A stretch of DNA of 64,000 bases, from assembly GCF_020884795.1 (NCBI RefSeq), contig NZ_BBZF01000012.1:550664-614663 (forward strand), in the 5' to 3' direction. This document shows, one piece after another, positions 4,996 to 18,490 of this stretch; within the stretch, counting starts at the first letter, position 1, and each line of letters opens with the position of its first letter. The position numbers and the translations under genes are program-made. Origin of the DNA: Micromonospora okii (GTDB taxonomy: Bacteria > Actinomycetota > Actinomycetes > Mycobacteriales > Micromonosporaceae). The notes beneath the pieces were generated by a model. That model was not told where the DNA came from. It did not search any database and saw only the letters and a program-made list of their open reading frames with translations.

Positions 4996-5027
4996 CGGGC
5001 GGGCCCCCTTCCGAGGCGTGTAAGCGG

Positions 5028-6775
5028 TCAGAATCCGTACAGGCGGCCGGTCGGCTTCCGGCGCTTCGCTAGCGCGCCGTCGGCGATCACGCGCTGCCGG
5101 GCCATCACGGCGAGGAGAAGCGCGGCGAGTGCGTCAACCTTTTTCGGCGACTCGCGTGTCTCTTTGCCGAAACTCACGCCGTACTGATTCGGCCGGCGGC
5201 GAGCGTTCAGGACGTGCCGGCGTAGCCGTTGGTCTCCGTCGTGCGGGACCTCGCCGTCGACAAACGCACGGTGAAGCGCCTCAACGGCGCGGACGGTCTC
5301 GGCGCGATGGGCGCGCATGTCCCACCCGACGGCGTGACGGGTCGTCGCCTTCACCAACAGGCGTTCGCCGTGCAGCTCGCGCCAGCGATCCACGTCGGTT
5401 TCCCAATACGCGACATCGGAAAAGAACGCGACTACGTCGAGGGTGGCGAACGCGTAGTCAACCACGCCGCGAACGTCGTCTTGATTGACTTCCCACCCGA
5501 CGCCGGAAGGGCCTTCCGGTTTTTCCCAGAGGCCGAGGAGGAACGCCGCGCCGTCGGACATTCGTACGGCGACAAGGGCCGTGCTGTCGTCCGTCCGTGA
5601 GCCATCAAACCCGAGCGTGACCGTGTCGGCCTCGCGCCACTTACCAGGCTCGGCGCGCTTCAGCGGGGCGAGGTCGTCACGTTCGTTCGCGTCGAATTCG
5701 TGCGGCGCTAGCCAGCTATCGGCGGCGGCTACAATTTGGTTCAAATAGAATCGCCGCGCCTCCTCGGGCGGGGTCGCCGGGTCGTAGACCTCCTCGGCGA
5801 TACGCTCTAGGTCAACCCACAGCGAATCGCCGTAGGCCATTGCTAGGCCGTCCATGAGGGCGTCCCGGTCGGCGAGGTCGATCGTCCCGGGGGCCTCGCG
5901 GGAGTCGTACAGAATGCCGGTCGCGCGGGTGCGCTTTTCGAGCATCGCCAGATAGGCGAGATAGGAAATCTCGGCGACGCTGTCCTGTCCCGGCGCGTGC
6001 GCGTTCGTGGTCTCGATTGCGCGGGCCATGCCGTCGCGGCTCTTAGCGAGGTTGCGCCGGATCACGCGGGCGAGGGCGTACCCGCCGTTAGATTCGGTCC
6101 AATGGTGCGTCTCGTCCATAATGGCGAAGGACGGGCGCGCACCTTCCTGGGTCGAGCTGGACGCGGTAACCGGCATAATCTTCCCGCCCGACGGCGTGAA
6201 GATTCGCGTCTTACCAATGTCAAGGCCCTCGACCTCGACCAACGGTGATTGTTCGACCATTGCGCGAATCGCGGCCATTGTGTTTTCGGTCTGCGTCTCG
6301 CTGACGCCCGCAATCACGATCCACGGCGCGGGGTGCGGCTTGCCGACGGGCTCGAAGTCGCGGCGCGGGTCCTCATTCCGACCCTCGGCGCTCCAATGCG
6401 AAAATCTGACCGGGCCGCACAGCTCGGCCAGCGCTAAAGCGCCGAGGAACGGGCTTTTCCCCAGCCCTTCGCCCTCCTAAGGACGGCGCGGCGGTAGATA
6501 AAGCGCCCGCGGTCGTCGACCGCGTAAAACCATAAGACAAAGTTGAGCTGTTCCCGGGTAAGCCGATATGGCTCGCCGGCCTCGTCGCCATCGGGCTGAA
6601 GCAACCACGCCTCGACCCATTCAACGACCCCCCAGCCAAGCGTTTTCACGCTCCCGTCAAGCGGGAAAAGGGCGAGCGTGGTCAAGGCGTGTGCAGCGAC
6701 GGCCCTGCGCGCTTCGAGCGCGGCGAGGGCGGCGAGGTCTGCTAGTTCGGCTTCCCGGGCGTCCGGCGCGGTCAC
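5028..6775 (-). CDS. terL: Terminase large subunit, split by a -1 frame change
   Basis: Two frames together make a normal packaging ATPase/nuclease. The first (6775-6416, GTG start overlapping the small subunit stop) ends as RRAVLRRAKGWGKARSSAL and then stops at TAG. Switching to the -1 frame at 6455-6461 restores GWGKSPFLGALALAEL, a proper Walker A, and leads into IAGVSETQTENTM, the Walker B FAIMDETHHW, and the nuclease part (VTLGFDGSRTDDSTAL, VAFFSDVAYWETD, KVDALAALLLAVMA). The joined product is 582 residues, normal for the family. Without the frame change the N-terminal piece has no complete ATPase. Either programmed frameshifting or a one-base deletion explains it. Confidence 0.88.
6455..6461 (-). 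promoter_or_regulatory. GGGAAAA slippery heptamer within terminase Walker A
   Basis: On the minus strand the zero-frame codons GGA AAA are preceded by G, making the X XXY YYZ heptamer G GGA AAA. A -1 slip re-reads it as GGG AAA AGC, which encodes exactly the Walker A Gly-Lys-Ser. Eleven bases downstream, GGCGC TTTA GCGCT can form a small hairpin whose loop region contains the zero-frame TAG stop. Frameshifting itself is inferred. Confidence 0.55.
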
Positions 6776-7221
6776 CCGAGGCGGTCGCGCAGCTCGGCGC
6801 GACGCTCGGTCAGGGAGGTGACGCCCGCGGGGAGCGCGTCCGCGGTGTCCGCGTCGGTCTCGACCCGCATTCGTGCGCGCATCCGGTCGACGACCGTCGC
6901 GCCCAACCTCTCCTCGTTCATGCGAATCTCAGACAGCGCCGCGGCGCTCGGGCGACGCCAATACGCATCGAGGATCGGCGCGAGCGTGGCGAGTCGCCGC
7001 CAATCCGTCCGCTCGAAAGCGGCGGCCTGGGGAGCGCGTCGCCAGTCTTCCCACCATGCGGCGACTTCGGGCGCGAACGGACGGCCCGGGAGTAGGTCCG
7101 CCAGCGCAGGGCCGCGAACGGTCCCGTCGTCGGCCGGTAGGACGGTCTCGCCGTGCGTCGGTGCGTTGCGACGGCGTCGCGTCGCGTCGGGCTTAGGGGC
7201 GTGCATGGTGCCGCGGGCCAC
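6772..7221 (-). CDS. terS: Terminase small subunit
   Basis: A 149-residue protein with the actinophage TerS pattern: basic N-terminus, then AWWEDWRRAPQAAAFERTDWRRL, LAPILDAYWRRPS and LSEIRMNEERLGATVVDRMRARM. It would recognise packaging sites and load the large subunit. Its stop overlaps the GTG of the large subunit (GTGA), indicating translational coupling. ATG 7221 is preceded by AGGAGG. A convergent or unrelated plus-strand gene lies 32 bases upstream. Confidence 0.85.
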   Translation of the reverse strand: MARGTMHAPKPDATRRRRNAPTHGETVLPADDGTVRGPALADLLPGRPFAPEVAAWWEDWRRAPQAAAFERTDWRRLATLAPILDAYWRRPSAAALSEIRMNEERLGATVVDRMRARMRVETDADTADALPAGVTSLTERRAELRDRLG

Positions 7222-7253
7222 GGCGGGACCTCCTTTCGGGCTAGCGCGGTGGG

Positions 7254-7889
7254 ATGCGTAAACTCGGGAACGTGAGCAGCGAGGCGCAAACGGCGACGTG
7301 CCGCGAACACGAGAACGAGTCAGGTCATTGGACCCTTACCGGGGCTCGGCTTTACGTCCATGAGCATTCGGGGCACTTTCCGGGCTGTGCGTTCGACCCC
7401 GCACCCCGCGAGTGCTGCGGTATGTGGTGGGTGCCTAACCCGCGCACGCACCGGAGCGACCGTCGATATGCGACCAAACGGGCCGCCCAGGAATCCGCGC
7501 TTGCCAGTGCGGAGCTATATAAGCTGCCAGTTCCACCCGCGCCGTATTTCTGCGAGCCCTGCGACGCCTGGTATGTGGCAGGGGATTTACCCGCATCGTG
7601 CCTTTACCATGGCACGCGCCGTATGTTCGCTAGTCGCGCGGCGGCGGTCGAATCCCTCGCAGCGCGCTTCGGGGGTAGCCCCCGGTCGCTGGCAAGGGCG
7701 GCAAGCCAGTGCCCTAAGTGCGAGCGGTGGTATGTGCCGCGGCGCGGTCCCTGTGCGGTGACCCCCGAGAAACGATGGTACGCAACGCGAGAGCACGCCA
7801 GGGATGCCGCGCGGCACACCCCACCGGGCGTGGCGTTCAGGGTGTACCCCTGCGGCCCATGCGGCGAATTCCACCTGACGTCGAAATAG
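7254..7889 (+). CDS. Cys-rich zinc-ribbon protein, unknown role
   Basis: A 211-residue frame, the only plus-strand gene between the terminase and the regulator region. It contains repeated Cys pairs: PYFCEPCDAWYV, SQCPKCERWYVPR and the terminal YPCGPCGEFHLTSK, plus ECCGMWWVP near residue 54. These look like two or three divergent zinc ribbons. Base composition is less GC-rich than its neighbours and one leucine is a rare TTA codon (GDLPA), which suggests a separate origin. The start is uncertain; the internal GTG (MSSEAQ) at 7272 is an alternative and neither has a strong ribosome site. Function is not recognised. Confidence 0.6.
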   Translation: MRKLGNVSSEAQTATCREHENESGHWTLTGARLYVHEHSGHFPGCAFDPAPRECCGMWWVPNPRTHRSDRRYATKRAAQESALASAELYKLPVPPAPYFCEPCDAWYVAGDLPASCLYHGTRRMFASRAAAVESLAARFGGSPRSLARAASQCPKCERWYVPRRGPCAVTPEKRWYATREHARDAARHTPPGVAFRVYPCGPCGEFHLTSK

Positions 7890-7892
7890 GTG

Positions 7893-8132
7893 CTACCCCG
7901 CCAGCACCCGCGCCCGCACGGCGCAATCCTTGGCTTCGAGCAACTTCCGCAGGCACGCGGTCAGCTCGGGGCCGTCCGGCAGGGCCGCAATCGTGGTGAA
8001 CGCCGTTGCGGCGAGCGGCGCGGCGACCGCGGCGAGGTGCGGCGGGAGGTGCGACGTGTCGAACAGGGGAAGGAAGTGTTCGGTATCCGGGTGGCGCGGC
8101 GTGGGCACCGGGGGCGGGACCAACAGGGGCAT
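7893..8132 (-). CDS. Small two-helix phage protein (Acb2/Tad1-hairpin-like?)
   Basis: A 79-residue protein. After a Pro-rich start (MPLLVPPPVPTPR) it forms two predicted helices: HLAAVAAPLAATAFTTIAAL and ELTACLRKLLEAKDCAVRARVL, joined by PDGP. A GPE-x-LRKLLEAKD-x-x-VRA second helix is common in short actinophage proteins. The layout resembles the helical hairpin of cyclic-nucleotide sponges (Acb2/Tad1), which phages use against CBASS and Thoeris. That comparison is from memory of the family pattern and not proven. The gene is convergent with the zinc-ribbon gene, 3 bases apart. Confidence 0.6.
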   Translation of the reverse strand: MPLLVPPPVPTPRHPDTEHFLPLFDTSHLPPHLAAVAAPLAATAFTTIAALPDGPELTACLRKLLEAKDCAVRARVLAG

Positions 8133-8241
8133 TGATACCTCTCGAAGGGGGTTACGGAATGCAACCGCGGTCGCTTTCCGTCACGACCTCTACGCCCGTA
8201 CAGAGCCCGGGGCGCTATGCCGCTTCGGTTGGGGGCGGGGC

Positions 8242-8279
8242 GGGGGAGGGGGCCTCCCCCCAGGGTCACGCAGCGTGAC
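8242..8279. terminator. Hairpins downstream of HNH gene
   Basis: A GGGGAGG/CCTCCCC hairpin at about 8242-8261 is followed by a perfect GTCACG-CAG-CGTGAC palindrome at 8265-8279. Both lie just after the HNH stop on the minus strand, so terminator function is likely. The second could also bind a regulator. Confidence 0.45.
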
Positions 8280-8299
8280 GGTCAGCGCTTCACACTCGG

Positions 8300-8599
8300 T
8301 CACAGCGCGCCAGGATGGCGCTCGCTCGGTCGCGCACGCGCGGGCCGTGGCCGGCGGGCCTGTGCTGCCTCGCCTGCTGTCTTCCGGGCGTGGCAGTAGG
8401 TACACAGCGCTTGCAGGTTGGCTAGGTCGTGGTCGTCCCCACGTTTGACGTGGTCGACCTCGCCCGCCGGGGCACCACAGCGCGCCCCCGTGCTGAACAC
8501 CGCCCGGCATCGGTAGCCGTCCCGACGCAGCACCCGCACCCGGCGCAGGGCCCAGTCGTGCGGAAGCCGGGCCCTACGATCGGAACCCTCCCACGTCAC
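8300..8599 (-). CDS. HNH endonuclease
   Basis: A 99-residue HNH nuclease using GTG at 8599 (MTWEGSDRRARLP), which matches the usual start of phage HNH proteins. The ATG at 8641 would add 14 atypical residues. Motifs are RDGYRCRAVFSTGARC (first Cys pair), EVDHVKRGDDHDLANLQALC (the DH catalytic pair) and TYCHARKTAGEAA. In HK97-like phages an HNH nuclease next to the terminase takes part in cutting at cos/pac sites. Here small genes separate it from terS. Confidence 0.85.
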   Translation of the reverse strand: MTWEGSDRRARLPHDWALRRVRVLRRDGYRCRAVFSTGARCGAPAGEVDHVKRGDDHDLANLQALCTYCHARKTAGEAAQARRPRPARARPSERHPGAL

Positions 8600-8853
8600 A
8601 GCTACGCCCCCAGGGTTTGAGAACGCCCCCGGGGCGCTCAACGCCGCATCCCGCGCCGTAGCCGCGGGTCAATGATCGCTAGCGAGCGGAGCGCACACCC
8701 GGGGGCGTGAGGGGAACCCGGGCGACGCACCCTCGCGGCCAGGTCCGCTAGGAGCGCACGTCGCCCAGGCGACGAAACCCGCGCACGTCTGCGCCCCGCG
8801 TCGAGCGCGGGCAGTGCCGTGTGCCAGAGCACAGAGGGCCAAAGGGGCGTACG

Positions 8854-8964
8854 TGGAACGGCCGAGAGTCGAACTCGGGTGCGCCGACGGTCCGCGTGCG
8901 GCTGTCGTCGGCGTCGAGACCTTCCCGTCCCGGGTGCATGCGGTCCCACCGCCGAGCCCGTCCC
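8854..8964 (-). tRNA. tRNA-like element with oversized variable region
   Basis: On the minus strand a seven-base acceptor arm (8964-8958 with 8861-8855, one G-T pair) encloses a perfect five-pair T arm around a TTCGACT loop (8880-8862). An eight-pair hairpin CGCCGACG/CGTCGGCG occupies the variable-arm position. The element is 111 bases, longer than a class II tRNA. I could not fit a convincing D or anticodon arm, and no CCA is encoded. It may be a degraded or intron-bearing phage tRNA, or a tRNA mimic. The rest of the 8600-9034 gap has no gene that I recognise. Confidence 0.35.
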
Positions 8965-9025
8965 ATAGGGCTCACGGGTCGTCGGCGGTGGGCATAGCGG
9001 GGTGAGGACGTGCTAGCGAGCCCTC

Positions 9026-9045
9026 ACGTACTGCCTATGCGCCAC
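9026..9045 (-). promoter_or_regulatory. Third, partial copy of the prophage promoter motif
   Basis: GTGGCGCATAGGC on the minus strand matches 12 of 13 bases of the -10 region of the two promoter units at 11586 and 13517. The -35 part is not conserved. It overlaps the end of the 9035 gene and points to the tRNA-like element. Confidence 0.3.
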
Positions 9046-9319
9046 GGGTGGGTGACGCGCGTCGAGCAGCCTGCCGGGCGCTGTCGCACGGCCGGCAACG
9101 GCGCTGCGCCCCGTCCGGGCGCGAGCGATCCGCGGCGAAGTCGAACAGGGGCCGCACCTCGCCGCAGTCGCCGCAGCGCTTCACAGCCTGCCGGCCGCGC
9201 CGGGCCCGCCGGGCGAGCTGGGCCCGCACGCGCGCGGCGAGGTCGGCCGGGTCGAGGCCGTGCGCCTCGGCGAGGTGCGCGGACAGGGTCGCTAGGTCGT
9301 CGGTCATGGTCAGTTGCAA
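9035..9319 (-). CDS. Phage zinc-ribbon protein
   Basis: A 94-residue protein: a helical N-terminus (DDLATLSAHLAEAHGLDP), a basic linker, then CGDCGEVRPLFDFAADRSRPDG and CRPCDSARQAARR. The CxxC, 'PxxDF', 'RPDG', CxxC order is that of small phage zinc ribbons related to the N-terminus of endonuclease VII-type proteins. A catalytic domain is absent, so it is probably a DNA- or RNA-binding accessory. The start may instead be the ATG at 9307, two bases after the lipoprotein stop. Confidence 0.65.
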   Translation of the reverse strand: MQLTMTDDLATLSAHLAEAHGLDPADLAARVRAQLARRARRGRQAVKRCGDCGEVRPLFDFAADRSRPDGAQRRCRPCDSARQAARRASPTRGA

Positions 9320-9612
9320 TCGTCGTCGTCGAGGTCGACGGGCACGATGACCGGCACGACCACGGGGACGCCGTCGCGGTACTCGGTCCGGTAGACGGAC
9401 GGCTTGCTGACCGGCGGGGCGGGGCGGGCCGGCGGGACAGCCGGACGGCCGGCGGGCCGAGGTGCGGGCGGGGCTGGGCGAGGCACGACCGGGCCGGCGC
9501 AGGCCGGCGCAGGGTCACCACACGCGACCAGCGCGGCGAGGCTGGACAGCGCGACAGCCGCCGCGAGCATGGCCGCGCCGAGGCGACGGAGAGCGGAGCG
9601 GGTGCGGGACAC
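9310..9612 (-). CDS. Prophage-encoded lipoprotein
   Basis: A 100-residue protein with a basic n-region (MSRTRSALRRLG), a hydrophobic core (AAMLAAAVALSSLAALV) and a lipobox LVAC with Cys at about 31. The mature part is a Pro/Ala/Arg repeat region and a short YRTEYRDGVPVVVPVIVP tail ending in acidic residues. AAGGAGA precedes GTG 9612. Lipoproteins made by prophages often act in superinfection exclusion. That role is inference, as nothing specific is recognisable. Confidence 0.7.
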   Translation of the reverse strand: MSRTRSALRRLGAAMLAAAVALSSLAALVACGDPAPACAGPVVPRPAPPAPRPAGRPAVPPARPAPPVSKPSVYRTEYRDGVPVVVPVIVPVDLDDDDCN

Positions 9613-9637
9613 AGAATCTCCTTAGTGATGGAAACGG

Positions 9638-9672
9638 GAAAGGCCCGCCCGGCGCGAGGCGGGGCGGGCCTT
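9638..9672. terminator. Intrinsic terminator
   Basis: AAAGGCCCGCCC, loop, GGGGCGGGCCTTT forms a strong stem. It follows the stop of the 66-residue membrane protein gene (9685) on the minus strand and precedes the lipoprotein gene. Confidence 0.8.
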
Positions 9673-9684
9673 TCGAGGAGGCGG

Positions 9685-9885
9685 TTAGTCGGACGCGGAC
9701 GATGAGCCCCGCATGAGCGCGGCGATGACCGTCAACAGGCCGACGACCAGGATCGACGGCCCGTAGCCGATGGTGGGCAGGTCGGGCACCCACTCGGCCC
9801 GGATCACGCCGACCGTGACCATGAATGCCCAGGCGGTCAGCATCAGGTACGCGAACAGGGCCAGAACCGCGGCGATGAGCTTCAC
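9685..9885 (-). CDS. Small two-TM membrane protein
   Basis: A 66-residue protein starting GTG 9885, overlapping the previous gene by GTGA. Two hydrophobic helices are evident: LIAAVLALFAYLMLTAWAFM and GPSILVVGLLTVIAALM, separated by a short loop with RAEWVPDL. It is the last gene before a terminator. Small prophage membrane proteins may be holins, exclusion factors or sensors; here only the topology is supported. Confidence 0.7.
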   Translation of the reverse strand: MKLIAAVLALFAYLMLTAWAFMVTVGVIRAEWVPDLPTIGYGPSILVVGLLTVIAALMRGSSSASD

Positions 9886-10415
9886 GGGGCCTTCCCTTCG
9901 AGCTTGTCGGCGAACGCGTCCCACCACCGGGCCGTGATGTAGTGGTGAGCGGTGCGTGACTCCTCGGCGACCTCCCGCGCGGCACGGACGGCGTCCGGCG
10001 CGGGGGCCGGCGAGGCGTCGTCGAGCGGGGCGAGGTACTTCGGGTCGACGTAGCGATGAGCGTGGGCGATGTGCCCCGCCGAACCGTCGAGGGGCTTCAC
10101 GAACACGTCGCCGTCGTCGTCCGGCGTCGCCCGGGTCAACCGAACGCGGGTCGCGCCCTCCTCGGTCAGCACGGTCCGGCCCCCGTCGGCGTACCGCGAA
10201 TCCGGCAGCAACCGATACTCGCGGCCCTCGACCAACTCGACCGCGGCCGGCGCGGTCGCCGGGGTGTCGCCCAGCAGCCGCGAGAGGTGGTCGCGCAGCT
10301 CGCGCACGTCGCTTCGCCGCAACCAGCGCCACTCGCCGTCGACCTCGAAACGGGCCTCGCCGTCGCGGTCGAGCGTGTCGGACACCTGAACGCCGTTGAA
10401 GTCACTGACCGTCAT
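9882..10415 (-). CDS. Beta-module accessory protein (177 aa)
   Basis: ATG 10415 overlaps the previous stop (ATGA). The N-terminal part (about 1-50) is a strand pair followed by the helix RRSDVRELRDHLSRLLG. Residues 62-131 form the shared beta module with YRLLPDS, GATRVRLTRATPDDDGDVFVK and YVDPKYLAPLDDA. A helical tail (WWDAFADKLEG) follows. The same module occurs in the 274- and 597-residue proteins upstream. I do not recognise a named family; an SH3-like barrel is my guess from the strand pattern. Confidence 0.75.
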   Translation of the reverse strand: MTVSDFNGVQVSDTLDRDGEARFEVDGEWRWLRRSDVRELRDHLSRLLGDTPATAPAAVELVEGREYRLLPDSRYADGGRTVLTEEGATRVRLTRATPDDDGDVFVKPLDGSAGHIAHAHRYVDPKYLAPLDDASPAPAPDAVRAAREVAEESRTAHHYITARWWDAFADKLEGKAP

Positions 10416-10726
10416 CAGAACAGCCCTCCCGTCAAGAAATGCACAGACAGCCAGCACATGAAGGCCAGCAACACGAACCGCCGCGCCCGCGCCCACCCGG
10501 ACGGAGCACGCATACCGCCGGGGTGCGTCGCCGTGCCGAACCACGCCCAGACGTGCTCGGAAAGCGTGTCGCCGGCCCGGCTGTTGAACAGCGCCATGCC
10601 CTCGACCGCGGCGAAGTACAGGAACCACACGACCCAGGCGGCCCACCACACGCCCAGGCCCAGGGACAGGCCCCCGGCGGCCCCGAGGAGGGCACCGCCG
10701 AGGGCGTAGGGGAGCGCGCGCTTCAC
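10415..10726 (-). CDS. Membrane protein, accessory operon
   Basis: A 103-residue protein with ATG 10726, overlapping the neighbouring stop by four bases. Hydrophobic segments are ALGGALLGAAGGLSLGLGVWW, VVWFLYFAAVEGMAL and, near the end, FVLLAFMCWLSVHFLTGGLF, giving three likely membrane spans around a polar middle (GDTLSEHVWAWF). Translational coupling on both sides ties it to the two beta-module proteins, so it may anchor or partner them at the membrane. No family is recognised. Confidence 0.65.
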   Translation of the reverse strand: MKRALPYALGGALLGAAGGLSLGLGVWWAAWVVWFLYFAAVEGMALFNSRAGDTLSEHVWAWFGTATHPGGMRAPSGWARARRFVLLAFMCWLSVHFLTGGLF

Positions 10727-11547
10727 GGCCGGTCACCAATCAGGAACTCGGCCAGCGCCCGCACCTCGAACGACTCGACCTCCTTGTCCGCCAGCAGGGC
10801 GGCGGCCTTCTCCCACGCGGCGACCCGCGCCGGGTCGAGCTGCGGGGCGACGTCGGTCAGCCTCGACGACAGCGCCTCGACGGCGTCGGGCGTGGCGGGC
10901 GTCGCCGGGGCGTCGTCGAGCGGGGCGAGGCCGGACGGGTGAACGCAGTTGCGCGTGCCCACGTACCTACCGTTGAGGCGCTTCACCCACACGTCGCCGT
11001 CGCTGTCCGGTCGCGCGTTGACCACCTCGACGCGGGTCACACCGTGACGCACCATGACCGACGGCGTCCCGCCCGCCAGCGTCGCCGACGGCAGGAGTCG
11101 GTACACACGGCCCGCCTCGACGGTCGTGAGCGGGGCCGGCGCGTCCCGCTCGGCCGGGTCGTGCGGCTTCAGCGCCGCGCGCAGCGTGGTCACGTTCGCC
11201 GGGGTCAGCGTCATGGTCTGTTCGCGGTCAGTCTCGGCGTTGATCGTGACCGACAGCGGCGCGCCCCCCGTCGACCGCGTGTAAACGGTCAGGCTGTCGC
11301 CGGTGGCGTCTTCGATGTCGGCGACCACGGACGGCCGGCGGTCACCCGTCCGGGCCGGACGCGGCGGCGTGAGCGCGTCGCGCAAGTCGGCCGCGGCGGC
11401 GTCGGTCAGGTACACGGCGACCGTCTCACGGGTCCGCGAGTCGTCGGCGACCACGCCGAACGTCGCGCCGTCGCTCCGTCGAGCGGTAAGGCGCTCGACC
11501 ATGATCCGGTCGCCGTCGCGGTCCGTGTGACTGAATACCTCGGGCAT
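10723..11547 (-). CDS. Beta-module accessory protein (274 aa)
   Basis: ATG 11547 follows a strong AGGAGG site and a dedicated promoter. Two copies of the 'strands plus helix' unit (about 5-60 ending in AAAADLRDALTPP, and 70-130 ending in TPANVTTLRAALKP) precede one beta module (140-215; VYRLLPSA, GVTRVEVVNARPDSDGDVWVK, GLAPLDDAP). A helical tail (220-274) follows. The tail resembles that of the 177-residue paralogue (PDAV...). It is the first gene of the operon that ends at the 9638 terminator. Confidence 0.75.
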   Translation of the reverse strand: MPEVFSHTDRDGDRIMVERLTARRSDGATFGVVADDSRTRETVAVYLTDAAAADLRDALTPPRPARTGDRRPSVVADIEDATGDSLTVYTRSTGGAPLSVTINAETDREQTMTLTPANVTTLRAALKPHDPAERDAPAPLTTVEAGRVYRLLPSATLAGGTPSVMVRHGVTRVEVVNARPDSDGDVWVKRLNGRYVGTRNCVHPSGLAPLDDAPATPATPDAVEALSSRLTDVAPQLDPARVAAWEKAAALLADKEVESFEVRALAEFLIGDRP

Positions 11548-11569
11548 GTAGGGCCTCCTCGGGACCTGT

Positions 11570-11614
11570 GTGGTCGGACACCACGCCTATGCGCCAGCGC
11601 GGGCCGGCTGTTCA
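11570..11614 (-). promoter_or_regulatory. Promoter unit A with inverted repeat
   Basis: Minus-strand -35 TGAACA (11614-11609), 17-base spacer ending CTGGCG, -10 CATAGG (11591-11586), then GTGGT-5-ACCAC (11584-11570) at the expected start site. Almost the same arrangement precedes the 597-residue gene. Confidence 0.6.
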
Positions 11615-11640
11615 CCCCAGGGCCCCTGTTTTTGAGCATG

Positions 11641-11676
11641 AAAAAGGCCCGCCCCCGAGGAGGGGACGGGCCTTTT
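11641..11676. terminator. Intrinsic terminator
   Basis: AAAAAGGCCCG and CGGGCCTTTT arms enclose a GC-rich loop region. It directly follows the stop of the 597-residue gene on the minus strand and insulates it from the next transcription unit. Confidence 0.85.
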
Positions 11677-11685
11677 CAGGGGGTG

Positions 11686-13479
11686 TTACGGGCGGCGGAT
11701 GACCCCGGTCGACAGGTACCACCCGCCGGCCAGGCTGAACCGCTCGCCGCGGCCGGAGACGAACTCCGCCCGGATGTTGTCCGAACGGTCGCCGATGCTG
11801 GTCACGCGGACCCGGTCGCCCGCGTAGAGCGAGGCGCAGTGCGGGAAGTCCTCCGTGATGATCGCCTCATCGCCGACGGCCCACGCGGCGGGGGCGGCCT
11901 CCCGGCGGAGTACCACCGCGTAGACCATGCCCGTGTGCCTACCGTCGACCGACGTGGCCCAGTACGCGTGCCGCGCGCTCCCGTCGCGCCGGCCCTTGTC
12001 GATGACCAGGCGCACACGCTCGCCGACCCGGAAGCGGAACCGACCGAACGCGTCGGCGTCGGTGACCACCGCGACGTCGCCGACGGCCCACGGGCGCGAC
12101 TCCTCGCCCGGCGCGGCCTCGGGGTCGCCGAGGAACGCGCGGCCGACGTACTGCGTGCGGTAGGTCCCGCGGCCGAACGCGGTCCCCGCGCCGTCGACGT
12201 TGCACACCCGGTAATCGCCGTCGGGGTCCGGGCCCGCCTCGACCCGGACGCGGGTCACGTCCGACAGGAAGTAGACCTCGTGACCGTGCGACGTCTTCGC
12301 GCGCGGCTTCAGCGCGACGATGTCGCCGGGCTTCAGCGCGGTCGGCGCGACGGGCTCGACCGTCTCCGGGTCGCCGAGGAACGCCCGGCCGACGTACTGC
12401 GTGCCGAACGCCGCGCGCTTGCCGCCGCCGTCGACGCCCGAGCCGTCGACGCTGCGCACGACGAAATCACTGTCGGAAATCGCGCGCACGACCCGTACGC
12501 GGGTCACGTCGGGCCGGAAGTACACGTTCCCGCCGGTCGACGTCTTCGCGCGCGGCTTCAGCGCGACGATGTCGCCCGGCGTCAGCGGGGCCAGCGCGGG
12601 GGCGGGCGAGTCGGTCCGGCGCAGCCTGTCCAGGCGGCTCGCGCACGTCGCGCCGTCGGACAGCCGGCGCACGCCGGCCAGCGTGGAACCGACCGTGTAC
12701 ACCTCGACAACGTCGCCCGCGCGGAACTGCCGGTAGTTGGCCTTGAAATCCTCGGTCACCACGGCACGGTCACCACGCGTCAGCGGGGCCGGCGACGCCT
12801 CGGCGTCCGCCGGGAGCGGGGCGAGGTACTTCGGCAGGATCAGGTACCGACGCTCGGCGCGTCCGACCCCCTCCCCGTCGAGCGGGACCGCCCGGACGGC
12901 CCCCGAATTGGGGTACGGGGTCAGGTCGACGACCTTGACCCTCGTCACGCCGTCCCGGGCGGCCTGCGACCCGATGCCCGGCGCGGTCTCGGCGTTCGGC
13001 AGCAGCCGGTAGACGCCACCCTCGACGATGCGAGGGGCGGGCGCGGTCTCGGTCTTGACCTCGGCCGGCTTCCGTGCCTCGGCGGCCTCAACGACCGCGA
13101 GCGGGACCACGCAGCCCCGGTACACGTAGTGAGTGCCGCCCGCCCGGGGGCCCTCGGTGAACGTGATCCGGTAAGCGCCGTCGCCATCCGGCGCGGCCTC
13201 GACCGTGCCGCGGGTCGCGTCGCGCGCCGGCCACGTCCCGGCCTTGAAACCGACGGGCTCGCCGACCTCGGCCGTCCAGCCGTCGAGGCCGTACCGCTTC
13301 ACCAGGAACGCGCCCAGGCGGGCGGCCTCCTCGGCGGACAGGTGGCCGATGTTGCGCCGACCCGACCGGGTCAGCTCGACGAACGTCCCGCCGTCGACCC
13401 ACGCGGACGGCGCGACGGACAGCCGGCCGACGGTCTCGCCTTCACCGTCGGTGGTCGGAAGGTTGATGTACTCGCTCAC
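11686..13479 (-). CDS. Multi-repeat beta-module protein (597 aa)
   Basis: I chose GTG 13479, placed right after AGGAGGCAGC; the ATG at 13512 lies in the promoter. Residues 1-70 are one 'strands plus helix' unit (LSAEEAARLGAFLVKR). Beta modules follow at roughly 73-127, 152-222, 232-290, 297-371, 380-453, 462-524 and 532-596. Modules four and five are close copies (GDIVALKPRAKTS, DVTRVRV, TQYVGRAFLGDPE). Linkers are Ala/Pro-rich. No enzyme motif, signal peptide or membrane span is seen. The sequence suggests a string of SH3-like barrels; the ligand is unknown. Confidence 0.75.
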   Translation of the reverse strand: MSEYINLPTTDGEGETVGRLSVAPSAWVDGGTFVELTRSGRRNIGHLSAEEAARLGAFLVKRYGLDGWTAEVGEPVGFKAGTWPARDATRGTVEAAPDGDGAYRITFTEGPRAGGTHYVYRGCVVPLAVVEAAEARKPAEVKTETAPAPRIVEGGVYRLLPNAETAPGIGSQAARDGVTRVKVVDLTPYPNSGAVRAVPLDGEGVGRAERRYLILPKYLAPLPADAEASPAPLTRGDRAVVTEDFKANYRQFRAGDVVEVYTVGSTLAGVRRLSDGATCASRLDRLRRTDSPAPALAPLTPGDIVALKPRAKTSTGGNVYFRPDVTRVRVVRAISDSDFVVRSVDGSGVDGGGKRAAFGTQYVGRAFLGDPETVEPVAPTALKPGDIVALKPRAKTSHGHEVYFLSDVTRVRVEAGPDPDGDYRVCNVDGAGTAFGRGTYRTQYVGRAFLGDPEAAPGEESRPWAVGDVAVVTDADAFGRFRFRVGERVRLVIDKGRRDGSARHAYWATSVDGRHTGMVYAVVLRREAAPAAWAVGDEAIITEDFPHCASLYAGDRVRVTSIGDRSDNIRAEFVSGRGERFSLAGGWYLSTGVIRRP

Positions 13480-13491
13480 GCTGCCTCCTAA

Positions 13492-13545
13492 GGCGCTGTG
13501 TTGCTCGGACACAGCGCCTATGCGCCAGGGCTGCGAGATTGTTCA
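13492..13545 (-). promoter_or_regulatory. Promoter unit B with inverted repeat
   Basis: Minus-strand -35 TGAACA (13545-13540), 17-base spacer, -10 CATAGG (13522-13517), overlapped by a perfect ten-pair repeat GGCGCTGTGT/ACACAGCGCC (13492-13518, seven-base loop). The -35, the -10 with its adjacent CTGGCG, and the sequence GTGTCCGA are shared with unit A, pointing to common control. Confidence 0.6.
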
Positions 13546-13627
13546 CCCGGCCCCACACTCTTTTCCGGGGCCCGGACAGAGACCCGCCCCGGGGGCCCCG
13601 GGGGAGGGGGCCGCACCGGGGCGGGGG

Positions 13628-13876
13628 TCAGGGGCGCGGGGCGCGGACCCAGGAAAGAAAGCGGTTGACCATGTCGGCCGGCGGGGTCGCGGGGGTCAGC
13701 TTGGTTAGCTGGTCCTCGGCCTCGGTCATCAGGGCGGCGAGGTAGACCGCGAGACCCACCCGGTTACCGCGGTACTCGGCGAGCAACGCCACCCGCGCGG
13801 CCCCACACGGCCACGGGGCCGCACAGCGCCGGCAGAGCCACAGGGGGCGCACCGGGCTATGTTCCGGGGCGGTCAC
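13628..13876 (-). CDS. Small Cys-containing actinomycete protein
   Basis: An 82-residue protein of a family common beside XRE/DUF397 regulators in actinomycetes. It has RPLWLCRRCAAPWPCGAARVALL, then AEYRGNRVGLAVYLAALMTEAEDQL and a C-terminal FLSWVR. Three or four cysteines in the first third could bind a metal. Genome annotations sometimes mislabel these as flavin reductase. It overlaps the end of the 90-residue gene and is convergent to nothing; a GC-rich stretch with the B promoter follows. Confidence 0.75.
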   Translation of the reverse strand: MTAPEHSPVRPLWLCRRCAAPWPCGAARVALLAEYRGNRVGLAVYLAALMTEAEDQLTKLTPATPPADMVNRFLSWVRAPRP

Positions 13877-14145
13877 CGCGCGGCCACCCGGGCGCGGGCG
13901 GGCGCGGGAGTCGCGCGCAGATATACCAGCCCCGCCCGCCTCACGAACAGCTCTCGCCGCGAGACCGCCTCGCCGCGGGCGTCAAGCTGGTAAACCTCGA
14001 TCCACGTCCAGCCGTAATAGGTGTGCCGGTCGGTCAGCTCGCGGATCACCCGCACGATGATCGGGCGTACGAATTGCACACTCGCGGCGCGGGTCAGATG
14101 CAGCACGTCGCCGGCCTTGATCGGGCGCAGCGTGGGCGCGGTCAC
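13873..14145 (-). CDS. Conserved 90-aa protein of XRE/DUF397 loci
   Basis: GTG 14145 is used, overlapping the preceding stop (GTGA); longer upstream frames are low-complexity. The sequence AGDVLHLTRAASVQFVRPIIVRVIREL, YYGWTWIEVYQLDARGEAV and RRELFVRRAGLVYL is a single small beta domain. I recognise it as a recurring companion of actinomycete XRE/DUF397 clusters, but its function is not known to me. It forms a coupled set with the 63- and 82-residue genes. Confidence 0.75.
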   Translation of the reverse strand: MTAPTLRPIKAGDVLHLTRAASVQFVRPIIVRVIRELTDRHTYYGWTWIEVYQLDARGEAVSRRELFVRRAGLVYLRATPAPARARVAAR

Positions 14146-14333
14146 CAGCGGCCCCCGTTGGCGCGCCATTCCTGCGCCGGGGTCGGCCGCGCGCCATCCT
14201 GCCACCACAGAATCGCCGTCGCGTCGTTCCCGTGCCCCGGGGTCGTGCGCGGGGGCGGGACGTTGCTCGCTGGGGCCGGGGCGGGGCGGTCCCGCCGGTT
14301 GCCGGCCCGGTGTCGACCGCCTCGCCCGCCCAT
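14142..14333 (-). CDS. Small basic protein, first of three-gene set
   Basis: A 63-residue protein with AGGAGG six bases before ATG 14333. It is Arg/Gly/Pro-rich at the start and ends GNDATAILWWQDGARPTPAQEWRANGGRW, a pattern I associate with short proteins preceding the 90-residue family. Its stop overlaps the next start. It diverges from the XRE gene, and the 215-base region between them holds both promoters. Confidence 0.6.
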   Translation of the reverse strand: MGGRGGRHRAGNRRDRPAPAPASNVPPPRTTPGHGNDATAILWWQDGARPTPAQEWRANGGRW

Positions 14334-14548
14334 AGCACGCCTCCTGTCCGGTGGGGATGGTGGAAGGGGGCCGCCCGCTCGGGTGTGGTGCCGTGGAAGG
14401 ACGGGCGGCCCCCGACAACCCCGGGCCCGATCCTGGTAACCCCCGGCCCGGGGCGTCATGGACCTACCCTGGCGGATAGTGACGGGACGCTAACACCGCG
14501 CTAAAGTGGGTCCGCCGGACGTCCAAAGAGTCCCCAGGGGAGGGCCGT

Positions 14549-15316
14549 GTGAACCACGGACTTATTGCCGCAATGGCCGAGGCCGGCGAGACCGCCGACA
14601 GTCTCGCTGGTCAGGTGGGTGTGGACCCGAAAACCGCTCAGCGGTGGGTCAGTCGCGGACGGGTGCCGCGGCCCCGGTACCGCTCGCAGCTCGCAGCGAT
14701 CCTCGGGCGGGACGTAAAGGACCTCTGGCCGGACGTAATCCAGCGTCGCGAACCGGCGTGGTTCCGGCCGTGGGTCGATATCGAGCGCGAGGCGCTGTCG
14801 CTGCGCGCGTTCCACCTCGCGTGGATACCGGGGCTGTTTCAGACAGAGACGTACGCGCGGGCGACGTTCGCCGGCCAGGATCTACCGCCCGCCGAGGTCG
14901 ACGACCTCGTCTCGGCCCGCCTCGCCCGGCAAGCGATCCTGACGCGGGAGCGGCCCCCGTCCGTGGTCGCCGTGATCGACGAACAGGCGATCCGGCGACC
15001 CGCCGCCGGGCCCCGGGGCGTCATGGCGGCCCAGCTCGCGCACCTCGCCGCGTGCGCGGACCTGCCGACTGTCCAAATTCACATTGTGCCCGCGGACGTA
15101 CCGACGTACCCGGGCCTTGACGGACCGTTCACGCTCGCCGCACTCGCCGACGGCGGACGGGCGGCGCATGTCGACAGTCAGGCGCACGCGGTCATCGTTG
15201 ACCAGCCGGCCGAGGTCGCTACGCTAGAACGGCGTTGGGAGCGCATCCGTGGCGAGGCGCTGCCACGGGGGCAGTCCCTAGACCTACTCACGAAAGCGGC
15301 AGAGACATGGACCTGA
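14549..15316 (+). CDS. XRE-type regulator with DUF5753 domain
   Basis: A 255-residue protein, GTG start after GGGGAGGG. The N-terminal HTH (about 5-60) contains SLAGQVGVDPKTAQRWVSRGRVPRP. The rest is the DUF5753 ligand-binding-like domain with IPGLFQTETYARATFAG, RLARQAILTR, VVAVIDEQAIRRP, LPTVQIHIVPADV and YPGLDGPFTLA. Such proteins pair with DUF397 partners in WhiJ/AbaA-type developmental control in Streptomyces. Here the pair sits inside a prophage beside the integrase, in the place of a lysogeny regulator; that role is inference. Confidence 0.9.
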   Translation: MNHGLIAAMAEAGETADSLAGQVGVDPKTAQRWVSRGRVPRPRYRSQLAAILGRDVKDLWPDVIQRREPAWFRPWVDIEREALSLRAFHLAWIPGLFQTETYARATFAGQDLPPAEVDDLVSARLARQAILTRERPPSVVAVIDEQAIRRPAAGPRGVMAAQLAHLAACADLPTVQIHIVPADVPTYPGLDGPFTLAALADGGRAAHVDSQAHAVIVDQPAEVATLERRWERIRGEALPRGQSLDLLTKAAETWT

Positions 15317-15498
15317 CCCGGGCGCGGTGGCGCAAGAGCACGTACAGCGGCGGCAACGGCGGTGACTGCGTCGAGGTCGCCGACAACCTTCCCGGCGTGG
15401 TCGCCGTGCGGGACTCGAAGGACCCGAGCGGGCCGGCGCTGGCTTTCAGCCCGGCCGCGTGGGCGGGGTTCGTGGGCATGGCGCGTACGTCGCGCTAA
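15307..15498 (+). CDS. DUF397 protein, partner of the XRE regulator
   Basis: A 63-residue protein overlapping the regulator by 10 bases. It has the full DUF397 pattern: ARWRKSTYSGGNGGDCVEVAD, VVAVRDSKDPSGPALAFSPAAWAGFV. DUF397 proteins are thought to bind and neutralise their cognate XRE/DUF5753 regulator, working much like an antitoxin/anti-regulator. Translational coupling implies fixed stoichiometry. A strong terminator follows 13 bases downstream. Confidence 0.92.
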   Translation: MDLTRARWRKSTYSGGNGGDCVEVADNLPGVVAVRDSKDPSGPALAFSPAAWAGFVGMARTSR

Positions 15499-15510
15499 CC
15501 GGCGCAACGG

Positions 15511-15542
15511 AAAGGCCCCCGGGGTTAGCCCTGGGGGCCTTT
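15511..15542. terminator. Intrinsic terminator after DUF397 gene
   Basis: AAAGGCCCCC and GGGGGCCTTT arms around a short loop, immediately after the plus-strand regulator operon. Confidence 0.85.
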
Positions 15543-15556
15543 CTCTGTGGGCGGGA

Positions 15557-15663
15557 GTGACGGAGTGCTCCCCGTAGCTACACTTCCCTATTCTCTCTCT
15601 AGAGACGACGACGACGACTAGAGAGAGAATAGGGGAGTGTAGCTACTGGGGTCACTCCGTCAC
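15557..15663. repeat. Long near-perfect palindrome with (GAC)n loop
   Basis: An outer 11-base perfect repeat (GTGACGGAGTG, 15557-15567, with 15653-15663) encloses a six-base asymmetric internal loop. Inside it are 29-base arms (15574-15602 with 15618-15646) that differ at one position, which is a U-G pair in plus-strand RNA. The apical loop of 15 bases is a GAC repeat. The arms include the AT-rich stretch CCTATTCTCTCTCTAG, unlike the surrounding DNA. It lies between the convergent DUF397 and integrase genes, after an ordinary terminator. Confidence 0.9.
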
Positions 15664-15684
15664 CCCCGCGTCCGTCTCCCGGCG

Positions 15685-17214
15685 CTAATCCTCGGGGTCG
15701 TGCTCACCTTCGGCGGGAATCGCGGTCAGCCGCGCCGGGTCGAATCCTCGCCGCCCGCGCTTGCCGGGGCCGAGGCGTAGCAATTCGTACGCGTCGGCGA
15801 GTAGTTCGCGGCGACCCTCGACGTCGCGGGCGTGCCATTCCTCGGCCATCGTCCGCCCCGTCGCTACCCGGGTCACGACGGGCGTGCGGGGCGCAGACGC
15901 GAGGAGGTCCCGGTCACCCTGTAGCGATTGCAGCCGCGCGACGGCCTCGGGCGTGACGGCCTGGGCGAGTTGGGCCAGCGTCGCCGAAATCATCTCCTCG
16001 ACCTCGGCTAGCTTGCCGTCGTCGGCGACGACTACTCGTTTCTCCACCATCGGCAGACGTCCGAAATCAGCGAGGAACATCGATTCTAGGTGTGCCTCGA
16101 AGGGGAGCGCCGACACGACCACGGGCGCGTCGCAGAGACCGCCCCCGGCCCGTCGCTGGCACCTGTAGGCGATTAGGTCTGACCGCCCGCGGCGACCGGC
16201 CGCGATCTCGGTTGCAGTGTGCGAGGCGGTGCGTCGGACGACGAATAGATACGCCCCGCACCCGCCACACTCGACCAGCCGCGAGGCGAGGCGGGCCGGC
16301 TTCCGTCCGCCCCGCTTCCGGGGGTCGGGGGACGGCGCGAGGGCCTTTCGCAGCTCGGTCACCGTGGGTAGGTCGAGCACAGCGGGGAACGGCGTCAGCG
16401 CCCGGCCGTCGGCGTCGCGCTGGACAACGTTGCCGACGGTTACGCGGCCTAGAATGTGGTCGCCGGTCAGGGATTGCCCGAGCGTGATCCGCGACCATTC
16501 GGGGGCGCGGCGCGGTTTCGGGCCGTGCCGGTTCATCCATCGGACCGTCCGGGCGAGTGGATCGCCGGCCAGGATGCGCGAGGCGCAGTCGCGCAGCGCG
16601 GCGGCCTCCTCCTCGGCCTCGGCCAGCGTCTTACCCTTGCCGTCGGGCGCGGGCACGATTCGGTATCCGTAGGGGACCTCGCCCCCGGGCCAGCGCCCGG
16701 CTAGGCGTAGCCGGGTGGCGCGGCCGGCGACCCGTTCGCGGGCACGCTCGCGCTCCTCGCGGGCCGCCTCTGCCTTGATCAGGAACATGAGGCGGAACGC
16801 CACCCCGCCGTTAGAGTCAACGCCCTTTGTGTCCATGAGGCGGACGGGCGGGCGAATGACTCGCCCGGTCGCCGGGTCTTTGCCTTCCTGAACGTCGAGA
16901 ATCATCGCAGCGACGTTTAAACCCTCGCGGGTCATGCGGTCGACGTGATGCGCGACCAACACGTCACAGCGCCCATACCGGGCGTCATTGAGCCAGGCGA
17001 CGAACTTGGGGCGGTCGCGCACCCCGCCCGAGATTCCGTCGTCAATGTGTAACGCGGCCTCCTCGAAGTCTTCCCGGGCGAGCAGGGCCCGGCATTCGGC
17101 GATCATGTTTTCAAGCGACGTGTTCGACTCGTCCGCCTGGTGCGACAGGCGGACGTAGATACTCGCGCGGGGTCGCCGTCGGCCGGCGACGGGCCCGGTT
17201 AGCGGAAGGGGCAT
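15685..17214 (-). CDS. int: Large serine integrase
   Basis: A 509-residue recombinase. I use ATG 17214 (MPLPLTG); the open frame continues upstream through the att junction without another start. The resolvase domain has YVRLS with the nucleophile at Ser24, DDGISGGVRDRP, and VLVAHHVDRMTREG. The recombinase domain follows (WPGGEVPYGYRIVP, ILGRVTVGNVVQRDADG). The zinc ribbon is CGGCGAYLF with a later YRCQRRAGGGLCDAPVV. A helical region (EVEEMISATLAQL) and a basic tail complete it. It catalyses attP x attB integration; no obvious recombination directionality factor is nearby. Confidence 0.95.
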   Translation of the reverse strand: MPLPLTGPVAGRRRPRASIYVRLSHQADESNTSLENMIAECRALLAREDFEEAALHIDDGISGGVRDRPKFVAWLNDARYGRCDVLVAHHVDRMTREGLNVAAMILDVQEGKDPATGRVIRPPVRLMDTKGVDSNGGVAFRLMFLIKAEAAREERERARERVAGRATRLRLAGRWPGGEVPYGYRIVPAPDGKGKTLAEAEEEAAALRDCASRILAGDPLARTVRWMNRHGPKPRRAPEWSRITLGQSLTGDHILGRVTVGNVVQRDADGRALTPFPAVLDLPTVTELRKALAPSPDPRKRGGRKPARLASRLVECGGCGAYLFVVRRTASHTATEIAAGRRGRSDLIAYRCQRRAGGGLCDAPVVVSALPFEAHLESMFLADFGRLPMVEKRVVVADDGKLAEVEEMISATLAQLAQAVTPEAVARLQSLQGDRDLLASAPRTPVVTRVATGRTMAEEWHARDVEGRRELLADAYELLRLGPGKRGRRGFDPARLTAIPAEGEHDPED

Positions 17215-17216
17215 GG

Positions 17217-17267
17217 CGTCTAGCGTACAACGCTCGACGTCTAGCGCGAAGCGCTGCCCGTCTAGCG
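17217..17267. repeat. Three CGTCTAGCG repeats at exact 21-bp spacing
   Basis: CGTCTAGCG occurs at 17217, 17238 and 17259, with a degenerate copy CGTCTAGAG at 17288. The first two copies continue as small inverted repeats (AGCG-TACAA-CGCT, AGCGC-GAA-GCGCT). They lie between the integrase start codon and the att junction. The two-turn spacing suggests cooperative protein binding on one face of the helix. Confidence 0.75.
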
Positions 17268-17298
17268 TTTCGCCGTCGTGTGATGTGCGTCTAGAGGC

Positions 17299-17335
17299 AT
17301 CCCCGTGCCGGCCGTCATCCACTGGGTGTCGCCGT
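17299..17335. other. Attachment-site junction inside pirin
   Basis: The pirin reading frame is normal through QWMTAG and then departs from the family (expected G-x-x-H), reading TGMPLDAHHTTAKR. The crossover therefore falls near 17300-17320. Sequence to the left (integrase side) is attP-derived and to the right is chromosomal. The core dinucleotide cannot be fixed without the other junction. Confidence 0.75.
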
Positions 17336-17423
17336 CGGTGATGGTGCCGCCGCCGCCCTGCGAGTCCTGGTGGTCCATGATCCCGTCGATCATGTAGGTC
17401 ACCGTCTCGAAGCCCCGGTGCGG

Positions 17424-17457
17424 GTGCCACGAGGTGCCCCTGGGCTCGCCGGGCGCG
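17424..17457. other. phiC31-type attB-like sequence, unoccupied
   Basis: This stretch of the pirin gene matches the minimal phiC31 attB, recalled from the literature, at 29 of 34 positions, including GTGCCC and TGGGCTC flanking the core. The central triplet is CTG rather than TTG. It is intact because the resident prophage used a site about 110 bases further 3' in the gene. Confidence 0.7.
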
Positions 17458-17676
17458 TAGTCCACCTCGCCCATCTGGTCCAGGTGCAGGAACGGGTCCA
17501 GCTCGTGCGTGGGCACCCCGGCGAAGGCGCGGCGGACCGGGAAGCCCTCGCCCTCGTACCCGCTGGGGGCGGTGGTCAGCCGGCGGACCGGCCGGTAGCC
17601 GGTGGTCTCGTCGAGCCGGGGCAGGCGGGGCAGGACGAGGACGTCGTCGACGGTGATGGCGGGCATCCCGAACTCC

Positions 17677-18156
17677 TTATTCGCTGGGGGTGGCCGAGGC
17701 GTCGCGGTCGGCGCGCAGGCGTCGGCCGAGCCGCTCGAAGACCCGGGTCAGGCAGGCGATCTCGGCGTCGTCGAGGTCGTCCATCAGGTGGTGACGCGCG
17801 GAGCGCAGGTGGTGCGGCGCGGCCTCGCGCAGCGCCAGCAGCCCGGCGGCGGTGAGCACCGCCTCGCTGCCCCGCCCGTCCTCGGCGCAGGGCTGCTTGG
17901 CCACCAGGCCGCGCTTGCCCATCGAGGTGATCTGGTACGTCAGGCGGCTGGGCGAGAAGACCAGCCGGCCGGCCAGCTCACCCATCCGCAGCCGTTGCCC
18001 CGGCGCCTCGGAGAGCAGCACGAGCACGTGGTAGTCGGCGAAGCTCAGCTCGCTGTCGGCCCGCAGGTCGTCCTCGAGCTGGGTGAACAGCCGCTGGCTC
18101 GACTCGATGTAGGCGCGCCAGCAGGCCATCCGCTCGCTGTCCAGGCTCTCCGTCAT
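17677..18156 (-). CDS. MarR family regulator
   Basis: A 159-residue winged-helix protein: LSFADYHVLVLLSEAPGQRLRMGELAGRL, then the recognition part SPSRLTYQITSMGKRGLV and the wing with EDGRGSEAVLTAAG. The C-terminal dimer helices follow (DLDDAEIACLTRVFERLGRRL). It is upstream of and 10 bases from the pirin gene, a common pairing for redox- or phenolic-responsive control. Loss of pirin leaves the regulator intact. Confidence 0.88.
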   Translation of the reverse strand: MTESLDSERMACWRAYIESSQRLFTQLEDDLRADSELSFADYHVLVLLSEAPGQRLRMGELAGRLVFSPSRLTYQITSMGKRGLVAKQPCAEDGRGSEAVLTAAGLLALREAAPHHLRSARHHLMDDLDDAEIACLTRVFERLGRRLRADRDASATPSE

Positions 18157-18407
18157 GCCGCAACACTAGCACTAGTTCAAAATTTAACAACATGCACCGG
18201 GGCTGGTTGATCGGTCGAGTGGGGCAGGTTCGGCCATAGATGATTCGAATGTGAAGAGGATGGCGTGAAAAACTGGGCGGGCGGGCCCGGCGGCGTGCCA
18301 GAATGCCCCGTGCAACACGCTGCGCGAGTCGTACCGCTACGGCGACGGCCGCCGGCACGACGAGCACCTGCACGCCCGCCTCGCGACCGACGGTTGACCG
18401 GCACGGC
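18157..18407. promoter_or_regulatory. AT-rich promoter region and a gene remnant
   Basis: Upstream of MarR, CTAGCACTAG and TTCAAAATTTAAC (18167-18189) form an AT-rich patch. On the minus strand it gives TTGAAC and a CTAG-containing dyad, a likely promoter/autoregulatory operator. Further on, about 18300-18386 on the plus strand encodes NTLRESYRYGDGRRHDEHLHARLATDG without a usable start, so it looks like the 3' end of a decayed gene. Confidence 0.4.
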
Positions 18408-18439: not shown

Positions 18440-18490
18440 GTCACTGCGATCACCGGGCCGCCGGCCCGGCCTCGGTGACCGGTGGGCGCA

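Follow-up and report, generated by a model that had tools for sequence, protein, structure and literature searches.

Proteins of predicted SH3-like modules encoded in a Micromonospora okii prophage and their possible role as early phage accessory proteins

The 64,000-nucleotide stretch of the Micromonospora okii genome analysed here (the window; positions 550664-614663 of contig C12 in a 6.44 Mb draft genome) holds a cluster of three genes, designated A, B and C, on the minus strand of a prophage. An earlier note had described the cluster as a prophage island encoding three proteins of 597, 274 and 177 residues. All three were found to be real genes, with coding character and conserved homologues. 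The features of the locus are listed in Table 1. The prophage nature of the island was confirmed by its genes and by a split host gene. The PHROGs matches included integrase, tape measure, minor tail proteins, primase, exonuclease, RNA ligase and dNMP kinase, and the terminase genes were assigned via homology, TerL homology included. The N-terminal part of the interrupted host gene lies at window positions 17262-17666 and its C-terminal part in the reading frame at C12:518128-518919, which gives a prophage length of about 49 kb. With integrase, tail, replication and terminase genes inside the split host gene, the element is the prophage of a temperate siphovirus and a complete virus genome. 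The split gene is presumably pirin-like, judging from its motifs. The attachment site of phiC31 is also a pirin-like gene, and a phiC31-like attachment site is thus suggested for the prophage.

Table 1. Features of the A, B, C cluster and its surroundings (window positions).
Feature	Position	Strand	Description
Leader element TGAACA-N12-TGGCGCATAGGC	13516-13545	-	Upstream of A; followed by a hairpin with an 11-bp stem
Gene A	11686-13479	-	597 residues: N-terminal unit followed by seven modules, of which three are type I, three type II and one divergent
Leader element TGAACA-N12-TGGCGCATAGGC	11585-11614	-	Upstream of B
Gene B	10723-11547	-	274 residues: strand-helix unit twice at the N-terminus, then a single type I module (predicted SH3-like) and C-terminal helices
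Membrane protein	10415-10726	-	Between B and C; PHROG 3555 (phiC31 gp29 family), E 6.6e-28, residues 25-103
Gene C	9882-10415	-	177 residues: N-terminal unit (LRDHL helix), then a single type I module and a tail
Small membrane protein (by eye)	9685-9885	-	Overlaps C by 4 bases; homologues in L036 and L044
Putative lipoprotein (lipobox by eye)	9310-9612	-	Adjoins the cluster; BLAST homologues in L036 and L039
Small CxxC...CxxC protein	9035-9319	-	Precedes HNH-TerS-TerL; present in 7/7 loci
TGGCGCATAGGC half without TGAACA arm	9033-9044	-	HNH-terminase side

The G+C contents at the three codon positions were 0.73/0.55/0.94 for A, 0.73/0.55/0.92 for B and 0.75/0.51/0.92 for C. G-C-rich third positions were seen in some antisense frames too, and the conserved homologues are therefore the better coding proof. 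The frame of A could open at 13512, and a GGAGG ribosome site favours the start at 13479. The four-base overlaps reported in the earlier note were found between B and the membrane gene and between C and the small membrane gene, whereas the membrane gene and C share one base only. The putative lipoprotein has counterparts in L036, L039 and L044 (in L044 by eye only), which possess a similar C-terminus, YRTxxRDGxPVVVP...DD...DC.

The similarity of the modules was tested by Smith-Waterman alignment against 300 shuffles. The z values were 30 for B/C, 15 for A2/B, 18 for A2/C and 36 for A4/A5, and 0/300 shuffles reached the score in each comparison, indicating that the modules are shared by the three proteins far above chance. 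A4 and A5, which are the two near-identical modules mentioned in the earlier note, were 84% identical over 110 nt. The estimate of about seven modules in A was correct in number, but the modules were not of one kind. A2, A4 and A5 belong to type I, A3, A6 and A7 belong to type II, and the first copy is divergent (independent E value 0.0016). B and C possess one type I module each. The strand-plus-helix unit occurs once in A, once in C and twice in B, and the two B units resemble each other (z = 4.7). Its presence in all three proteins was in agreement with the earlier description, but the units showed no significant match across A, B and C (none by Smith-Waterman; best profile E 0.047, helix only), and no common origin is therefore claimed. 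Across the related loci, B contained one, two or three type I modules, with or without type II. This free variation in module number within a fixed gene order looks like domain shuffling. On the reading favoured here, A, B and C would have been built by shuffling three parts: the N-terminal strand-helix unit, one or more SH3-like barrels, and a C-terminal helical tail in B and probably in C.

The fold was predicted with AlphaFold from alignments of six rows for B and three rows for A, and the N-terminal units were modelled within the whole proteins. In the B model, the predicted local distance difference test score (pLDDT) was 81-87 for the type I module and 82-87 for the last helices. The type I module (residues 137-212) contained five strands and was predicted to be an SH3-like barrel, with Z values of 5.8-6.7 and root-mean-square deviations of 2.3-3.6. 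Its structural neighbours were KOW domains (Spt5/DSIF, kin17, NusG), Ube2O, ribosomal chains, Mib and Tudor, with KOW, Tudor and Mib domains predominating and a best Z of 6.7; since these values are moderate, the assignment is held at the level of the fold only. The A model was poor overall (mean pLDDT 57.8). Its residues 460-597, comprising the last two type II modules, matched SH3 and the KOW domains of NusG/Spt5 at Z 7-8, so that the fold of type II looks similar to that of type I in this weaker model. For B, Foldseek placed PURA, Why2, SP_0782, YdbC and EF_3132 among the top 50 matches, at E 0.04-1.6 and on the low-confidence part of the model. We take these five to share a bbbba nucleic-acid-binding fold, and a PUR/Whirly/PC4-type fold for the N-terminal unit is a lead only. 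The Pfam families PC4 and DUF3276 gave no match in this genome, and one control genome was positive for each. No KOW model was found among the Pfam matches at E<=10 for A, B and C or at E<=1 for the modules. Profile matches to PDB sequences were rejected as unconvincing: Scone-E (E 4e-4 over 15 positions), MEK5 (0.0035 over 22) and nitrile hydratase (0.12).

Seven related loci were compared, namely the own locus and those of KC213 (G731), G671, G741, G742, G743 and G744. G743 and G744 stand under one IMG/VR genome number, and the seven loci thus come from six sources. A module profile built from the window only, run on 300 family genomes, detected two further loci, G731 (E 2.3e-15) and G671 (3.4e-15), and the next match (0.0018) was at chance level. 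The scans of IMG/VR added the four prophage contigs G741, G742, G743 and G744; no match was confirmed there when A and B were used as single proteins. A profile of the window's five type I modules alone reached the six other loci at E<=2.7e-14. In reversed frames, the window-only profile gave no match at E<=0.01 (best 0.23). The profiles labelled A6, A9, A10, A11 and A12 were built from loci that they match and are circular, and the independent support comes from the window-only profiles. A metagenome contig, L047, was excluded from the comparison; it had a C-unit match of 22 residues only and no such cluster among its listed frames.

The units of B and C occurred together in 7/7 loci, and that of A in 3/7. 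The association of B and C is thus conserved, and the outcome that would have spoken against the island according to the earlier note, no conserved association among the three genes, did not arise. The PHROG 3555 membrane gene was found between B and C in 6/7 loci, and its overlap with B (GTGA or TGATG) was kept in all five loci inspected. Downstream, BLAST detected the CxxC protein in 7/7, HNH in 6/7 (one weak, E 1e-4) and TerS in 4/7 loci, the KC213 contig stopping before TerS; this contig also stops about 116 bases upstream of A. Outside the seven loci, A was found in none of 100 other relatives, C in none of 393 other class genomes, and the module in none of 395 other phylum genomes at E<=1e-5.

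This restricted distribution might fit anti-defence proteins or nucleic-acid mimics, the acidic B and C occupying host nucleases or silencers early in infection. The isoelectric point (pI) of both B and C is about 5. The five other B homologues had pI values of 4.5-4.8, and the six B proteins together had pI values of 4.5-5.1 and net charges of -9 to -26. However, A is not acidic (pI 8.7, compared with 7.9 for the A protein of L044 and 6.22 for that of KC213), and other proteins of the same prophage, such as TerL and primase, are acidic as well (pI 5.4-5.7). We regard an anti-defence or mimic role as unlikely.

None of the families in Pfam, PHROGs, NCBIfam and PADLOC covered A, B or C, in agreement with the earlier note, where no named family was known for the set. 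Their homologues and modules were likewise without a covering family in the libraries run. The sub-threshold matches were PF16450 (E 0.004; the only OB-named match, over 22 residues of A, with 17.4 bits against a cut-off of 23), DUF7457 (0.005) and DUF6907 (0.07), and phrog_20471, an unnamed PHROGs family, matched weakly (0.0024 for A, 7.7e-5 for the A protein of L044). In the portions of the open-licence literature available on KOW/SH3-like phage domains, Arthrobacter phage Liebe, Micromonospora prophages and phiC31 early promoters, including the cluster AZ paper (PMC8758107), no description of the module cluster was found. The predicted fold is a known one; A, B and C themselves lie outside the families of the four libraries.

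Among 50,697 phage records, credible relatives of the modules, searched with the three window proteins and two homologues, were found in the Arthrobacter phages MaGuCo (2e-5), Emotion (4e-3), Maureen (8e-3) and Liebe (3e-2) only. By tblastn against these records, A and B (E<=0.01) and the A protein of L044 (E<=1) gave no match, and C (E<=10) matched one phage, Sbash, at E 4. The window-only profile, run on 2875 frames, detected MaGuCo gp38 (3.2e-10), Liebe gp40 (3.5e-9) and Emotion gp43 (1.6e-7); Maureen gp40 was 99.6% identical to Liebe gp40, and BaileyBlu gp39 was reached only via MaGuCo gp38 as the query (E 2e-4). These hypothetical proteins of MaGuCo, Liebe/Maureen and Emotion possess modules of the type I sequence family, as in the prophage. 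In the maps of MaGuCo, Emotion, Liebe and BaileyBlu, the module gene opens about 9-11 bases past the DNA primase (primase/helicase) gene. The next large gene, one or two small genes on, encodes DNA polymerase I in MaGuCo, Emotion and Liebe, and is unnamed in BaileyBlu. The Arthrobacter proteins differ from those of the prophage in that they showed no match to the N-terminal unit profiles, and no gp29-like neighbour was found in the stretches of MaGuCo, Emotion and Liebe that were covered. The C-terminal tails resembled that of B by eye, and this candidate likeness was rejected as not significant (best E 0.42).

A and B are each preceded by a leader element (Table 1). Its TGGCGCATAGGC half occurred five times genome-wide, always in the prophage and on the coding strand, and the control gave 0. 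The pattern TGAACA-N11-15-TGGCSSA occurred 14 times in the genome; seven of these sites lay in the prophage, without exception on the coding strand, and the reversed control gave 0. The next frames after the seven elements were A, B, RNA ligase (PHROG 548), exonuclease (PHROG 298), a PHROG 9220 gene, a 75-residue frame and primase (177 bases). Since A and B have this leader in common with replication and recombination genes, they are tied to the early genes. Seven matches were found in G742 and six in G743, each on a single strand and with a control of 0, and in both phages one of the genes behind an element has an N-terminus resembling that of the exonuclease (by eye). The bases after TGGC varied by phage: GCATA in 7/7 here, CGACT in 7/7 for G742 and CCACT in 6/6 for G743. 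Such phage-specific dialects were clear in these three, and the leader sites of the present prophage span C12:533008-564208. The evidence was weaker elsewhere. With a looser pattern, G741 had four TGAACAC...CCGGC sites and G744 had three TGCACACCT...TGGC sites. In G671, the leader pattern was little above the control genome-wide (18 vs 6), with three sites on the prophage contig C56, one of them before B. In phiC31, Camvirus and Arthrobacter phages, the looser pattern was not clearly above the control (0-3 per strand vs 0-3).

The simplest reading is that the leader element would be a phage-specific promoter, because it is asymmetric and lies upstream of the ribosome sites, and because no sigma-70-like pair was found in 9000-14000. 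The hairpin after the leader was rejected as a general conserved feature, only 5/23 sites having p<=0.05 and 9/23 p<=0.2 against shuffles; it was strong before A. The scan for intrinsic terminators gave 0. Behind A and behind the small membrane gene, inspection by eye showed GC hairpins with short runs of T, which were not counted. Rfam gave no match in window positions 1-20000.

The position of the cluster just before HNH and terminase genes, with B and C flanking a holin-like membrane gene, might instead indicate accessories of packaging, virion assembly or lysis timing. This would be in agreement with the conserved downstream genes and with the half leader element on that side; in addition, one phiC31 record calls the gp29 family a putative holin-family lysis gene. 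However, the holin label is an unproven annotation, and the full leader pattern had no exact match in C12:540173-562253, the region of tail and terminase genes. Furthermore, the relatives in MaGuCo and Liebe are part of the replication cassette at about 29-30 kb, a long way from the terminase genes at about 1 kb. We regard a role in packaging or lysis as unlikely.

A further explanation is a lysogenic-conversion or superinfection-exclusion island, in which the lipoprotein and membrane proteins would work at the envelope with A, B and C as cytoplasmic partners. The putative lipoprotein, which might act in exclusion, stands with two membrane proteins in or beside the gene string, and overlapping ends link the membrane genes to B and C. 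The membrane protein between B and C is a member of the phiC31 gp29 family, but the context differs: in phiC31 its neighbours are a tRNA and an HNH gene, and in Camvirus phiScoe45 it is flanked by HNH and by a small gene that precedes TerS. There are 180 phage records with this family, under the names Streptomyces or Lomovskayavirus, and tblastn with A, B or C matched none of them, so that its members need not work with A, B or C. Moreover, PADLOC detected 0/10 proteins at E<=1 (six window proteins and four homologues), and the leader element stands before the exonuclease and RNA-ligase genes too. An exclusion island is thus improbable.

The reading that we favour, with a confidence somewhat short of even, is that A, B and C may be cytoplasmic early lytic accessory proteins of a temperate actinophage and may take part in its DNA metabolism or in the takeover of the host as multivalent SH3-like adaptors. 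Its computational basis is the shared modules, the conserved gene order, the SH3-like prediction for type I, and the leader common with replication and recombination genes. Tandem SH3-like barrels are often multivalent binders of proteins or nucleic acids. A, B and C would be transcribed early upon lytic induction, and their barrels would then engage partners, either proteins or nucleic acids, during phage replication or transcription or in the takeover of the host. Because of the difference in pI, B and C would more likely bind proteins, and A could itself contact nucleic acid. The leader and the primase-adjacent relatives favour an early lytic role in DNA metabolism or in host takeover, the latter being among the functions considered in the earlier note. 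Of the others considered there, defence and exclusion gained no positive evidence, and DNA binding has become less probable for B and C.

Several points weigh against the adaptor reading. The acidity of B and C argues against simple DNA binding. A, B and C adjoin the HNH and terminase genes and not the primase operon, with the half element on that side too. KOW, Tudor, PC4 and PUR families were not matched by sequence, structural Z values below 8 may reflect merely a common arrangement, and the N-terminal units of B had a low-confidence model (block means mostly 31-55). In addition, the promoter function of the leader is putative, and the count of sigma-70-like pairs in 9000-14000 was 0.

The working mode of such adaptors might be likened to that of T4 MotB or of Spt5/NusG KOW arrays, and no membership is claimed. 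T4 MotB is described as an early phage protein with a predicted KOW and OB fold; it is a DNA binder and, when overexpressed, changes H-NS-dependent repression (PMC7827196). It would resemble the present proteins as an early phage protein with a predicted KOW (SH3-like) domain, and it offers a precedent for a takeover role. As described, it differs in having one KOW and one predicted OB domain and in binding DNA; the present proteins contain as many as seven modules, and two of them, B and C, are acidic. As for Spt5/NusG, KOW domains are among the structural neighbours of both module types, and both have multiple barrels per chain; however, no KOW sequence match was found here and an NGN domain was not seen. 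On a far more speculative view, which we consider quite unlikely, the proteins would form a new class of early effectors combining N-terminal units like single-stranded-DNA-binding proteins (PUR/Whirly/PC4-type) with arrays of KOW-like barrels. This class would be a phage counterpart of Spt5/MotB engaging host RNA polymerase or the nucleoid. Its expression would be turned on through a promoter code particular to the lineage, with per-phage dialects of an asymmetric non-sigma-70 element being read by a phage-encoded factor.

Many actinophage early genes have no known function. In our study, an anonymous gene group becomes testable, as its module is found again and again in prophages of Micromonosporaceae and in Arthrobacter phages, its fold can be predicted, and it comes with conserved neighbours and a common control element. 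Moreover, the leader dialects could allow early regulons to be mapped by sequence alone.

Two small proteins are encoded between A and the integrase side, at window positions 13873-14418 and 13628-13876, with homologues in L039 and L044. At 14549-15498, on the plus strand and thus opposite to the cluster, a regulator is followed by a small protein, and a similar regulator frame is present in L039. The regulator presumably has a DUF5753-like C-terminus, and the protein after it is presumably DUF397-like.

On the terminase side, the TerL gene (window 5028-6775, minus strand) lies in two frames and is broken at the KGWGKS motif, which we take to be Walker A-like. The junction (6455-6478) contains G GGA AAA, a slippery heptamer of the -1 type. 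Two arginine codons, AGG AGG, form a Shine-Dalgarno-like AGGAGG stretch 11 bases upstream of it, and the -1 frame past the junction continues as conserved TerL. This is a candidate programmed -1 frameshift in the terminase gene; shared decay or a lost base are the alternatives. No report of a programmed -1 frameshift in terminase was found in the literature listings consulted. The motif was present in 21 of the 22 loci scanned, some of which are near-duplicates; 19 of these had a single frame, among them L085, which has GGGAAAG, no AGGAGG and no break. The break with AGGAGG occurred only in this prophage and in G742 (L100 and L039, one contig), where the arrangement is the same.

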